Shown here piece by piece: positions 13,341 to 35,671 of a stretch of DNA of 64,000 nucleotides. Positions within the stretch are counted from its first letter, which is position 1, and each line of letters begins with the position of its first letter. The position numbers and the translations under genes are program-made. Source of the DNA: Acidobacteriaceae bacterium (lineage in GTDB: Bacteria > Acidobacteriota > Terriglobia > Bryobacterales > Bryobacteraceae); NCBI GenBank assembly GCA_019244055.1, contig JAFATG010000325.1, positions 1-64,000 on the forward strand, written 5' to 3'. The notes under the pieces are model-generated. The model ran no database searches. It saw only the letters and a list, made by a program, of their open reading frames with translations, and was not told where the DNA came from.

Positions 13341-14333
13341 GTGAAGACCTCCATTGCGGCGCTGTTCGCGACAGCGCTCGTCTCCCTGACCATTAGCGCT
13401 CATCGAGTCTCTCAAGAACCTCTTCTGCGCCCGGGCACCGACGGCACAAGCTGGACTCGATTCGGTCTGTTCAATCCGGCCGCTATCAAGAAAGACGGCA
13501 AGACGATCCTGCTCTTTCGCGCGCAAGATGCAAAGCACACCTCGTATATTGGGTACGCCGAAAGCTCCGACGGCGTGCATTTCACCGTTCGCCGTCAACC
13601 CGTGCTCTCCCCCGAAGCGCCCTATGAGAAAGGCGGCGGCATCGAGGACCCGCGCCTTATCGAGATCGGTGGTGCTTACTATCTCACCTACACTGGCTAT
13701 GACCTGCATGCCGCGCAATTATGCCTGGCCACCTCCGCGGATCTGGAGCATTGGCAACGCTTGGGCGTCATCTTGCCCGCGTATAAAGGTACCTGGAACG
13801 AGCAGTGGACGAAATCGGGCGCGATCGTGCCCGAAAAGATTCTCGGCAAGTGGTGGATGTACTATCTCGGAACGAAGAAAGACAGCGACGGTAAAGCCCG
13901 CGACTATATGGGGCTCGCTTCATCGAGCGACCTGCTGCATTGGAGCGATGCAACGGCAAAGCCCGTTCTCGACCGCCGCCCGTCGGCATTCGATGCGCGA
14001 GTCATGGAGCCGGGGCCGCCGCCCTTTTTGACGGGTGCAGGTATTCTCCTTCTTTATAACGGCGCCGACGAGTCTCTCGTGTACCGGCCTGGTTGGGTCC
14101 TGTTCGATAGGAACGACCCGCGGCGCGTCTTAGCTCGATCGAACGAGCCGTTTATCCAGCCTGCTCTCGGTTGGGAAAAAGTGGGTAATGTTCCGAACGT
14201 GATCTTTCTGGAAGGCGCCATCCCGGATCGGGACACAACCAGCACGGACCGTTTTTCGCTCTTCGGATATTACGGCGCTGCCGACAAATTCATCGGTGGA
14301 ATGAAGATTCAAGTTTCGCTCGGGAATCAGTGA
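13341..14333 (+). CDS. GH130-family glycosidase/phosphorylase-like protein, exported
   Basis: Five-bladed propeller of the GH130 family (mannoside phosphorylases and hydrolases). Markers: LFNPAAIKKDGKTILLFRAQD, GIEDPRLIEIGGAYYLTYTGYD with the proton-donor Asp of EDPR, WWMYYLG, and GPPPFLTGAGILLLYNGAD. Start chosen at GTG 13341 because a clear signal peptide follows (KTSIAALFATALVSLTISAH); a longer ATG start at 13299 would bury that signal. Phosphorylases in this family are usually cytoplasmic, so an exported copy suggests hydrolysis (beta-1,2-mannosidase-like) instead of phosphorolysis. The two MFS genes upstream fit oligosaccharide use. Confidence 0.85.
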   Translation: MKTSIAALFATALVSLTISAHRVSQEPLLRPGTDGTSWTRFGLFNPAAIKKDGKTILLFRAQDAKHTSYIGYAESSDGVHFTVRRQPVLSPEAPYEKGGGIEDPRLIEIGGAYYLTYTGYDLHAAQLCLATSADLEHWQRLGVILPAYKGTWNEQWTKSGAIVPEKILGKWWMYYLGTKKDSDGKARDYMGLASSSDLLHWSDATAKPVLDRRPSAFDARVMEPGPPPFLTGAGILLLYNGADESLVYRPGWVLFDRNDPRRVLARSNEPFIQPALGWEKVGNVPNVIFLEGAIPDRDTTSTDRFSLFGYYGAADKFIGGMKIQVSLGNQ

Positions 14334-31486: not shown

Positions 31487-31564
31487 CGGGCCGTGGCGCA
31501 GCCTGGCTAGCGCGCTTGCTTGGGGTGCAAGAGGTCCCGGGTTCAAATCCCGGCGGCCCGACCA
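31487..31564 (+). tRNA. tRNA-Pro (anticodon GGG)
   Basis: Cloverleaf drawn by eye. Acceptor CGGGCCG pairs with CGGCCCG; D stem GCGC/GCGC; anticodon stem CTTGC/GCAAG with loop TTGGGGT, giving anticodon GGG; T stem CCGGG/CCCGG with TTCAAAT loop; discriminator A and an encoded CCA. The leading C-G pair and A73 suit proline. Length 78 with CCA. Confidence 0.95.
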
Positions 31565-32062: not shown

Positions 32063-33082
32063 TTATTTCGTCAGCACGTCCTGAATGAAGGCCAGCGCGC
32101 GGGGATCCTGGCTCTGCCCCAGCCAGAAGAAGGCCTGCTTGCGAACTTCCGGATTTTTTTGATCTCGGGCAACTTCGATCAGCTTGGGAACACCTTCATC
32201 CTTGGGCAGTTGTGAAAGAGCGAATACGGCCTTCTTCTTCACTTCGGTATTAGGGTCATTTTGGATGGCATTAGTGATGGTCGCGGCTGCAACCTTGCCG
32301 GCCTTTTGGGCCAACCAGAATAAAGCCTGTCCCCGGACGTGTGCTGAAGGATCGCTTTTGGCAGCCTGTATCAGCATCTCCAGCCCTTCGGGCTGTTTGC
32401 TGATGGAGAGCGCGAACACCGCCTTGTCGCGCACGTGTTCGCTCGGGTCATTTGCCAAAACGTTCTTCAAAATGGCAACTCCGCGCGCGCCGCGGCTGGC
32501 CCCGAGCCAGAATGTTGTCTGCTCCCGAATTCTTTCCGGTTGCGTGGTCTTGGTAAGCTGCTCCAGGACACGGTCGGCTTCAACGCCATCATGCTGAGCG
32601 ATCGCAAAGATGGCACCCTCTGCCTTGTGGTCAGCCGGATCTACTGCGAGTTCCTGTAAAAGACTCAGACTTGCGTGTGCCGGAACACCGGTGATCCACA
32701 CAAACGGCAGGCCGCCTGCATCAAGCGGACACGAGAGCGAATATACCTGAATCTTCTGAATCGCGTTATTCTCAACCCGGAAGAGAATCGCGATGGCATC
32801 GGCGCCTTCGAGTTGAACGGGGCGATTAGCGGGGGTAGTGATTCGCTCGCTGTTCTCATCTTTCTCAAGCCAGCATCCCGGCGAGCCGTTCCAGCAGCAG
32901 GTCTCGTGATCGCTTCGGATAGATTTCACGGGATATCCGAACCAGCTGGTCGATGTTGAGCGAAGCTCCGTCTCGAGATTGCCCGAATACCCGCGAGTCT
33001 CTAGCCGGGCGTTCGTGACGTTTGGCTGCCACTTCTGCGCCAGCGCCAGGGAAGCAGTAAGAAGCAGGACCAGGCTTTTCAT
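32063..33082 (-). CDS. Exported HEAT-repeat protein
   Basis: 339 residues with signal peptide MKSLVLLLTASLALAQ. N-terminal part (to ~160) carries Cys-rich HETCCWNGSPGCWLEKDEN; the remainder is HEAT-like repeats of ~31 residues with the pattern DPxxxVRxKAVFALSxxxxxEGxxxLIxxA, e.g. SEHVRDKAVFALSISKQPEG and AHVRGQALFWLAQKAGKVAA. Helical scaffold for protein binding in the periplasm. Last gene of a four-gene unit: its start overlaps the previous stop (ATGA). Confidence 0.88.
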   Translation of the reverse strand: MKSLVLLLTASLALAQKWQPNVTNARLETRGYSGNLETELRSTSTSWFGYPVKSIRSDHETCCWNGSPGCWLEKDENSERITTPANRPVQLEGADAIAILFRVENNAIQKIQVYSLSCPLDAGGLPFVWITGVPAHASLSLLQELAVDPADHKAEGAIFAIAQHDGVEADRVLEQLTKTTQPERIREQTTFWLGASRGARGVAILKNVLANDPSEHVRDKAVFALSISKQPEGLEMLIQAAKSDPSAHVRGQALFWLAQKAGKVAAATITNAIQNDPNTEVKKKAVFALSQLPKDEGVPKLIEVARDQKNPEVRKQAFFWLGQSQDPRALAFIQDVLTK

Positions 33083-34311
33083 CTGAGAACCTCCATCATG
33101 TAATCCGTGGTTTCTTTCGACTGAACCAGGGCGATCTTTTCCACGATCTTTTGCTTCATTTCGGGGTCTTTTTCACTGCGGGCGAGCGCGACCAGCGCCT
33201 TGCCATTGTGCTGCAGAAAGAGAGAATTCAACACTGCTTCGCGCGCCTCGCGATTCGGATCGGATTGGTAGATGGACACTAGAACATCGCCCCGGCCGTT
33301 GTCTCCCATGAGCCCGAGAGATTTGATAGCCGCAACCCGCAGCGCCGGGTCTTTCTGGTTGCGAGCAATTTCGATCAGCCTTGCCGAGTTGCCGCCCAGA
33401 AACATGGACTGCAAAATGGCTTTCCGGTTCTCGACCGAACTATCGGACTGGTACAGTTCCCAGAGCTCATCCTGACCGCCTGACATGGCCAACTCCCGAA
33501 TCGCTTGCAGGCGGAGTTCCGGATTGCTTTCCGTCTTGGCCGTCTTTAGCAGAAATGCGCGTGAGCCCGAAATCATGAAACCCTGCAGAATCGCCTTCTT
33601 AATGCGTTCATCCGACGAGGACGCATACAGCGATGCCAGTTCGTTGCGGGACTGGTCGCCTCCCATCATGCCCATGTACCGGATTGCTTTTAACTGGAGC
33701 TCCGGGTTTGATGATCCGCGGGCTATATCGGTGAGCAGCTTTCGCGCCTCGGGTGACGGGTTTTGTGTCAGAACGAAGAGCGCTCTTTCTTTCACCTTCG
33801 GTGAATTGTTGGGGCTGGCAAGCAGCTTTTGAAGAATCGGCAACGCCTGATTCGGATCCGATTGCATGAGGCTATTAATTGCAATGAGTTTCAGATTTTC
33901 ATCCGATTCCGAAGCGGGACTTACCGGGGCCCCGGTCTGCGCGCGAACTTCCACTTCGAGGGCGCGTGCATCGCCGATCCAATGGCTGGAAGGATAATCC
34001 TTGCGCAGTTCCGCAATGGTCGAGAGCGCGTCCTCGCGGTGGCCCGCCCGATTCTGCGCCCATGCCTTCCAATACAGAGCGGCGTCCACTTGCGTCCCCT
34101 TATGAGAAGCCGCCGCATCGAAGGACGATATAGCCTGATCCCATTGGCGCGCGTCGAGCGCCTGTAAGCCCTTCTGGTAATCGGCGTCATCTTGATTCGC
34201 CTGACGGGCCTGAAAACTTTGCGCAAATGGCACAAAACTACCCTGCGCAGCAGCAGGACCCACAGTCACTGCGATAGTCAACGCGATAAAAGATATACGT
34301 TTGCAAATCAT
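33079..34311 (-). CDS. Exported TPR/HEAT-repeat protein
   Basis: 410 residues; signal peptide (ISFIALTIAVTVGPAAAQG). Residues ~40-110 resemble a TPR pair (YQKGLQALDARQWDQAISSF, YWKAWAQNRAGHREDALSTI), after which HEAT repeats of about 32 residues run to the end, e.g. ERALFVLTQNPSPEARKLLTD, NPELRLQAIRELAMSGGQDE, DPALRVAAIKSLGLMGDNGR. No catalytic site. Fourth-base overlaps at both ends place it in the sigma/anti-sigma unit; likely an envelope-located partner regulated by that sigma factor. Confidence 0.88.
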   Translation of the reverse strand: MICKRISFIALTIAVTVGPAAAQGSFVPFAQSFQARQANQDDADYQKGLQALDARQWDQAISSFDAAASHKGTQVDAALYWKAWAQNRAGHREDALSTIAELRKDYPSSHWIGDARALEVEVRAQTGAPVSPASESDENLKLIAINSLMQSDPNQALPILQKLLASPNNSPKVKERALFVLTQNPSPEARKLLTDIARGSSNPELQLKAIRYMGMMGGDQSRNELASLYASSSDERIKKAILQGFMISGSRAFLLKTAKTESNPELRLQAIRELAMSGGQDELWELYQSDSSVENRKAILQSMFLGGNSARLIEIARNQKDPALRVAAIKSLGLMGDNGRGDVLVSIYQSDPNREAREAVLNSLFLQHNGKALVALARSEKDPEMKQKIVEKIALVQSKETTDYMMEVLR

Positions 34312-35000
34312 AAATTCTGTCCTCTTCTCCGGGCGTCAGTACCCGTGATGCGCACTTTAAACAGCAGAGCTTCGCTATCAATACGCTGTTGGATCATCTG
34401 AAGGCCGTTCGATGATGACGAGTGAGACCCGTTGGCGACATCCAGCAACACGCGTTCGAGCGCGTCCAGTAAATCAGCATCCGCCGCGTCACCGATATGG
34501 GCAGCGCTCTGACGAAGCAAACGGTTTTCACCGAGCAGTTCGCGCGCTTTGTCCTGCTCACCCGTCAGGCCGATCTCCGGATCAGCGTGGAGCAGTTCCG
34601 TCAAAAGAATCTGCGAGCGATCCAGGTGATCGCTGAGCGCCATCAAGAGAATGCGTTCGCGGGCTTTTTCGGAGATTCCCGCTCGGCGCTGGCCGGTAAA
34701 CATACCGGCAAGGAAGGCGACCAGAACAACGGTCGCAAGCGCAGGGGTAAGCATCCACCATCGAAACCAGTTCATGCGCGGCTTCGCCGCCGGCAGATCC
34801 GGAGCCAAACGAGCCCAGACATCGGACCCATACAACTCATCCCGTTCTGGGACTGGATAATCACGAACGGAGTCAAGTAAACCGCTCAATCGCTCAAATT
34901 CCGCGCGGCACTCGCCGCATTCTTGAAGATGTTGACGCGACATGTCATCGATATCGCTGTAATACGCCTCAATCAGCAGTTCTTCCGTGATGTGCGTCAT
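34308..35000 (-). CDS. Putative anti-sigma factor (zinc-finger type, single TM)
   Basis: 230 residues. The N-terminus has the anti-sigma zinc motif HLQECGECRAEF (HxxxCxxC) around residues 24-31, and a single transmembrane helix follows near 80-105 (LTPALATVVLVAFLAGMFTG). The C-terminal ~115 residues are extracytoplasmic and helical (LMALSDHLDRSQILLTELLHA, split for clarity). Overlaps the ECF sigma gene by 4 bases (ATGA), the usual arrangement for a cognate pair, so it most likely sequesters that sigma factor at the membrane. Confidence 0.87.
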   Translation of the reverse strand: MTHITEELLIEAYYSDIDDMSRQHLQECGECRAEFERLSGLLDSVRDYPVPERDELYGSDVWARLAPDLPAAKPRMNWFRWWMLTPALATVVLVAFLAGMFTGQRRAGISEKARERILLMALSDHLDRSQILLTELLHADPEIGLTGEQDKARELLGENRLLRQSAAHIGDAADADLLDALERVLLDVANGSHSSSSNGLQMIQQRIDSEALLFKVRITGTDARRRGQNL

Positions 35001-35578
35001 CGGGCTGCCACTCCCCAGGCCGGTTCCAGCGCGCGCCGGAGTTTTTGCACGGCCCGGAACACGCTGTGTTTTGCGGCATTCGGCTGCACTCCGAGTGCTG
35101 CGGCTATCTGTTCGATATCGTGGCCCTCATAATGTCGGAGTACGAATGCAATGCGTTCAATTTCACTCAGTCGCTTCAGGGCGTCTTCCAACCGGTTCGT
35201 GATCTGATTACTTTGCGTCAGGCGTTCAGGCGACGGCCCGGGCGAAGCCACGCGATCCAACCAGTGAACAGGAAATTTCTCACCCGCAAAGGGCTGTTCC
35301 TCATTACGGCGCTTTCGCGCGCGAATCAGGTCAATCGAGCAGTTTGTGCAGATGCGATATAGCCAGGTGCCGAATCCTGAGCGTGCATCGAACTGATGCA
35401 ATTGCTTATATGCCCGTAGAAACGTTTCCTGAACCATATCCTCGGCGTCTTGCTCATTGCCAGTCATACGAAACGCAAGACGGAAAACGGAGTGACTGTG
35501 GCGTTCGACCAAGACACGAAAGGCTTGTTGATTACCGTTGCGTGCCTCGTCGGCAGCCGCTGAGTCGGTCCATTCCAT
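34997..35578 (-). CDS. ECF sigma factor (RpoE-like)
   Basis: 193 residues. Region 2: FRVLVERHSHSVFRLAFRMTGN followed by EQDAEDMVQETFLRAYKQL, with YRICTNCSIDLIRARKRR as 2.4-type recognition helix. Region 4: LSEIERIAFVLRHYEGHDIEQIAAALGVQPNAAKHSVFRAVQKLRRAL in pieces. First gene of a four-gene coupled unit (sigma, anti-sigma, two HEAT proteins). The upstream stretch to the divergent isomerase gene is short (~90 bases) and should contain both promoters; no convincing consensus was seen. Confidence 0.93.
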   Translation of the reverse strand: MEWTDSAAADEARNGNQQAFRVLVERHSHSVFRLAFRMTGNEQDAEDMVQETFLRAYKQLHQFDARSGFGTWLYRICTNCSIDLIRARKRRNEEQPFAGEKFPVHWLDRVASPGPSPERLTQSNQITNRLEDALKRLSEIERIAFVLRHYEGHDIEQIAAALGVQPNAAKHSVFRAVQKLRRALEPAWGVAAR

Positions 35579-35671
35579 CCGGCTGGTCTTTAGACTGAGA
35601 ATACGCGCACCGGTTAGTTAGGTGCGATGAAAATTTCAGGCGGGGCTAATCTAGGCAGGAGCAACAAACAA

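Follow-up and report, generated by a model that had tools for sequence, protein, structure and literature searches.

The window analyzed here is a 64,000-nucleotide stretch (positions 1 to 64,000 of contig JAFATG010000325.1, assembly GCA_019244055.1) from the 6.2-Mb draft assembly of an Acidobacteriaceae bacterium. Four open reading frames (ORFs) on its minus strand, running from 35578 to 32063, encode in this order an extracytoplasmic function (ECF) sigma factor (34997 to 35578), a membrane anti-sigma factor of 230 residues (34308 to 35000), and two exported repeat proteins, HEAT1 (410 residues, 33079 to 34311) and HEAT2 (339 residues, 32063 to 33082). The four genes are joined by three 4-base ATGA overlaps (35000-34997, 34311-34308, and 33082-33079), and every ORF and overlap lies where the original prediction, made from the sequence alone, had placed it. 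A predicted ECF-type promoter (35590 to 35617, minus strand) precedes the sigma gene.

The sigma factor matches Pfam Sigma70_r2 (residues 23 to 91, 5.5e-22) and Sigma70_r4_2 (residues 128 to 180, 6e-13), with no other full-strength match, and scores 112 bits against TIGR02937 (cut-off, 42.9); its closest solved structures by profile are SigW (2e-46), SigH/AlgU, and RpoE. The anti-sigma factor gave no match when the single sequence from the window was searched against Pfam. When 73 orthologues were combined into a profile, it matched the RsiW anti-sigma domain (5wuq, 5e-7) as well as ChrR (0.02); zf-HC2 is detected in 26 of the 73, and H24, C28, and C31 of the H24-x3-C28-x2-C31 motif are invariant. 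Because of the profile match to the RsiW domain, we assign the second gene to the class I (zinc-type) anti-sigma factors, with predicted binding of the sigma factor. In the AlphaFold2 (AF2) model (mean predicted local distance difference test [pLDDT], 90), one membrane helix (residues 78 to 102) is followed by five periplasmic helices spanning residues 111 to 229; the model and the comparison of full-length with zinc-domain-only matches delimit a periplasmic five-helix domain of residues 111 to 230 (34308 to 34670, minus strand), within which R116, H125, R160, R163, E182, F214, and R217 are conserved. A Foldseek search with the anti-sigma model returned no match below E 0.2, and VIA-align gave only generic four-helix bundles with Z of about 11, a value usual for helical bundles, so that no family is assigned. 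Two loci from same-class genomes (L094 and L095, family f2) have anti-sigma orthologues lacking the H-x3-C-x2-C motif, together with a shortened HEAT1 and an intact promoter; L095 is an Acidobacteriaceae-type orthologue.

The last two genes had been described as encoding two exported HEAT proteins. Export and HEAT repeats hold for both products, each of which exceeds the Pfam cut-offs for HEAT-repeat families; HEAT1 needs redefinition as a TPR and HEAT protein, not one of HEAT repeats alone. It consists of a signal peptide, a TPR part (about residues 45 to 112; TPR_6/TPR_19), and HEAT repeats (about residues 130 to 410) with four HEAT_2 stretches (102 bits). HEAT2 has a signal peptide, an N-terminal cysteine-containing β domain (residues 21 to 131), and then HEAT repeats (HEAT_2, 80.8 bits; HEAT_PBS, 50.5 bits). 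A hydrophobic signal region is available in 76 of 80 HEAT1 and 70 of 70 HEAT2 orthologues when the most favorable start codon is chosen. The model of HEAT2 (pLDDT 91) combines the β domain with a HEAT superhelix and aligns with the HEAT-like alphaRep (3ltj; Z 18.4, root mean square deviation 4.4, 174 residues) and YibA; sequence and structure searches with HEAT2 gave matches in the HEAT half only and none for the β domain, which is no proof of novelty. The TPR part of HEAT1 has weak profile matches to CpoB/YbgF and BamD (2e-4 and 6e-4), far below the curated cut-offs, and neither HEAT1 nor HEAT2 has a Pfam match to the RseB/MucB family up to E=1, both being assigned to TPR/HEAT or HEAT families. 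The same assembly also contains a fragment 86% identical to about residues 250 to 389 of HEAT1 (locus L070, 6416-7024; contig G000:C40, about 13499-13918) that adjoins a transposase-like gene and rml-type sugar nucleotide genes; it is apparently a pseudogene piece, either from a second, broken copy in the assembly or from a strain mixture.

A search with HEAT1 across a collection spanning bacteria and archaea retrieved 80 loci, nearly all titled Acidobacteriota; the few labeled Betaproteobacteria, Nevskia, or Cyanobacteria we take to be mislabeled genomes. The order is exactly sigma, anti-sigma, HEAT1, HEAT2 in 59 of the 80, and the remainder have split or duplicated frames, contig cuts, or no HEAT2, which is absent from roughly one in eight to one in six loci. 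The gene order shared by nearly all 80 loci indicates that the arrangement is not due to chance. A 4-base overlap is available at 58 of 75, 43 of 78, and 42 of 70 of the three junctions, counted with an optimistic choice of start codons, and in distant relatives the gaps are often 0 to 100 nucleotides; the triple ATGA thus appears to be a local refinement and not a universal feature. Because the flanking genes vary between loci, the unit is considered to end with HEAT2. In the window, the sole tRNA gene, a tRNA-Pro (GGG), lies downstream of the unit on the opposite strand (31487-31564). One genome shows the unit in decay: in L327 (G316:C58:13500-19500) a deletion has taken out the anti-sigma gene and joined the N terminus of the sigma factor, in frame, to the middle of HEAT1, and a short HEAT1/HEAT2 remnant elsewhere in that genome (L325) still has the promoter.

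The original prediction had suggested looking for a binding site for the sigma factor upstream of the operon but had not itself noted one; such a predicted site is present and conserved across the phylum. Among bipartite motifs in 108 regions 5′ of the sigma gene, CTAACCG-N15-GTCTAA is the most frequent. It occurs exactly (spacer of 15 or 16) in 68 and with at most one mismatch in 93; none of 1,080 shuffled sequences has it at that tolerance. The copy in the window is exact, with its –35 part at 35617-35611 and its –10 part at 35595-35590, the latter ending 11 nucleotides 5′ of the sigma start codon. Since this distance is short, a sigma mRNA with next to no leader is predicted. The –35 element is CTAACC, with AAC in 98 to 100% of 84 aligned promoters, and in the –10 element, GTCTAA, GTC is 100% conserved; the preceding position is most often A (42%) and not C, so that the CGT of ECF promoters is not strictly present. 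ECF promoters characteristically contain AAC in the –35 element, and ECF systems typically autoregulate (PMC8103513). With an ATGA-coupled anti-sigma gene and a conserved predicted promoter at the operon, the architecture of the unit appears to be autoregulatory. At one locus (L317, G478:C129:42000-48500), two near-identical promoter copies precede the operon, oriented alike and separated by 1.4 kb.

Most of the informative exact sites, in the phylum search and in 237 genomes of the family, are those of the operon; among the remaining sites a selection was inspected, taken chiefly from genomes with multiple hits. The motif appears to be rarer than its reverse in these genomes (2 hits versus 22), which makes the reversed pattern an imperfect null control, and position relative to genes was therefore used as the criterion. 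The window's genome has one exact site, at the operon, and one further site at up to one mismatch (C137:12021), which was rejected as a target, with no clear gene start at operon-like spacing; exact hits in genomes without the operon (e.g., G094 and G163) look like chance and were likewise set aside. At six loci, including L325, HEAT1-HEAT2 pairs or a lone HEAT2 outside the operon have a copy of this promoter immediately before them. Because the detached genes have their own promoter copy, the HEAT genes are predicted to be regulon members, that is, outputs of the sigma factor, even when unlinked, and not passengers. A second group consists of ADOP duplicated permeases, nine of which have the promoter with a start codon 5 to 18 nucleotides past the –10 element, and eight of these nine within 5 to 13 nucleotides; TIGR03434 was confirmed for four of the promoter-bearing permeases, and those at L291, L307, L321, and L322 look like one orthologous permease present in at least three genera. 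The family has many ADOP genes (at least 22 in the window's genome, where none has a promoter site at up to one mismatch), so that some of these sites may have arisen by chance; for most of them, the recurrence of operon-like spacing speaks against this. The promoter may be a first regulatory link for the expanded acidobacterial ADOP family.

The HEAT genes had been proposed as direct partners of the sigma/anti-sigma pair, and this association was examined in 247 genomes of the phylum by a profile search that selected loci by the anti-sigma factor alone. Matches reaching profile position 220 or beyond were regarded as full length, and among the matches listed, all 77 such hits have a gene for an exported TPR/HEAT protein directly downstream. 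The partner is HEAT1 in 45, mostly then followed by HEAT2; 32 are more distant, and in nearly all of these it is a shorter exported TPR protein that has a few HEAT-like helices plus a C-terminal domain and after which a small exported protein is usually encoded (in 2 of the 32, the contig ends after the N terminus of the partner). Each of 20 control hits that match only the zinc/TM (transmembrane) part is accompanied by a sigma gene, but within about 3.5 kb HEAT1, HEAT2, and the outer TPR protein are all absent. This difference (77 of 77 versus 0 of 20) indicates that the TPR/HEAT partner follows the periplasmic domain of the anti-sigma factor. Frequent absence of HEAT genes from homologous pairs, which would have told against a partnership, was not seen, though HEAT2 is missing in some loci. 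In the outer lineages (L113-L144), the sigma and anti-sigma genes are followed by an exported TPR/HEAT-like protein of about 285 residues and a small exported protein of about 128 residues; the latter has an end like "ETVKVWLE", resembles the C-terminal domain of the preceding gene product, and has no Pfam family above the cut-off. In a tree of the sigma factors, the deep forks are unsupported, so that a single origin of the HEAT-bearing pairs is neither proven nor excluded.

We tentatively favor, with slightly less than even confidence, a self-activating ECF envelope switch whose main product is a set of exported TPR/HEAT scaffold proteins feeding back on the anti-sigma factor. At rest, the membrane anti-sigma factor would hold the sigma factor through its zinc-type domain, and HEAT1 would engage the periplasmic five-helix domain through its TPR part, the only portion that all relatives have in common, while HEAT2 would assist. 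The HEAT proteins might then be drawn away by envelope material that is unfolded or unassembled, or the contact between HEAT proteins and anti-sigma factor might change, upon which the sigma factor would be released. Once free, it would fire the promoter of its own operon to yield more HEAT1 and HEAT2, plus ADOP permeases in some relatives, and the rising level of HEAT proteins would restore the brake. Sequence comparison supports the operon, the promoter, the autoregulatory architecture, the regulon membership of the HEAT genes, and their co-segregation with the periplasmic domain. Several points weigh against the proposed switch. The physical contact, its negative sign, and the signal are inferred by analogy with the action of RseB and MucB on RseA and MucA; co-segregation can also arise through shared descent of one operon lineage; and a pure effector role accounts for the promoter data equally well. 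HEAT2 is also unlikely to be essential to the switch, because HEAT1 and HEAT2 lie apart from the operon in some genomes and HEAT2 is often missing. In a bolder form, which we hold to be only a little less likely, exported TPR/HEAT superhelices could constitute a new class of periplasmic third component that binds the anti-sigma bundle and reports the load of unassembled envelope proteins, making the circuit a homeostat whose regulon is nearly its own sensor or chaperone, phylum-wide and widened by ADOP permeases in some lineages.

The strongest alternative, which we consider somewhat unlikely, is that the HEAT proteins are purely an output of the sigma factor, serving as envelope scaffolds or as factors for assembly or repair, and that the anti-sigma factor senses alone through its helical bundle, with no contact from the HEAT proteins. 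Detached HEAT genes that retain the sigma promoter speak for it, as do ADOP permeases that share this promoter in some genomes, and small regulons dominated by cotranscribed effectors are ordinary for ECF systems; however, the tracking of the periplasmic domain is tighter than expected for an exchangeable effector. Less probable still is a model in which the HEAT proteins bring the signal and take an active part in freeing the sigma factor, for example, by a ligand-loaded binding that exposes the anti-sigma factor to proteolysis, close to the receptor or release role originally suggested. Although such a role suits proteins that are exported, built of repeats, conserved, and encoded directly downstream of the anti-sigma gene, the HEAT genes are predicted sigma targets, and positive action by their products would give a doubly positive loop with no evident brake; because the flanking genes vary, there is also no consistently linked protease partner. 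Seen as outputs, the HEAT proteins are no less compatible with a role as feedback modulators or effectors than with one as upstream receptors. That they are unrelated passengers of an old operon is very improbable: operons can be inherited whole and conserved order alone would be compatible with this, but detached HEAT genes have kept or acquired the same promoter in several genera, which largely refutes it, and even the very divergent outer lineages still have homologous TPR/HEAT partners.

Little is known about envelope stress responses in Acidobacteriota, which are abundant in soil, and a circuit can now be defined in them by a sigma factor, an anti-sigma factor, a phylum-conserved promoter sequence, and a short list of outputs. 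The motif can serve directly as a marker with which to trace the regulon through hundreds of genomes, and it provides an initial way into the function of the very numerous ADOP permeases. In the literature searched, we found no description of an ECF switch with TPR/HEAT partners, of this promoter, or of the ADOP link; ECF classification papers were outside that search, and a group number may already exist.

Among known systems, SigW-RsiW is the nearest solved structure by profile for both the sigma factor and the anti-sigma domain, whereas its periplasmic domain differs and the regulon of Bacillus SigW is large, that of the present unit being close to a single operon; we know of no HEAT partners of SigW-RsiW. 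CpxP and CpxA provide periplasmic feedback within a two-component system, and the present circuit would work in a similar way if the HEAT proteins hold back the sensor that governs their production; the proteins are unrelated, and the likeness is one of analogy only. The TPR envelope proteins CpoB/YbgF and BamD weakly resemble the TPR part of HEAT1 but lack the HEAT extension. Nearer at hand, the third gene after the homologous pair of the outer lineages also encodes an exported protein with TPR and then HEAT-like helices; it differs from HEAT1 in its length, its few HEAT helices, and its different C-terminal domain. ECF switches with a periplasmic third component are already known, in that RseB (PMC8103513) and MucB (PMC7400510) are encoded in the operon and bind the anti-sigma factor. 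RpoE-RseA-RseB of Escherichia coli and AlgU-MucA-MucB of Pseudomonas share with the unit described here an ECF sigma factor, a single-TM anti-sigma factor with a periplasmic domain, and an exported third protein from the same operon, which is self-activated, as is predicted for the present unit (PMC8103513, PMC7400510). Unlike RseA and MucA, the anti-sigma factor here combines a zinc-type domain with a periplasmic helical bundle, and its putative partners, whose contact with it is presumed, are TPR/HEAT repeat proteins, usually two, unrelated in sequence to RseB and MucB. If the HEAT proteins do modulate the anti-sigma factor, they would represent a convergent answer to RseB and MucB, built from repeat scaffolds.

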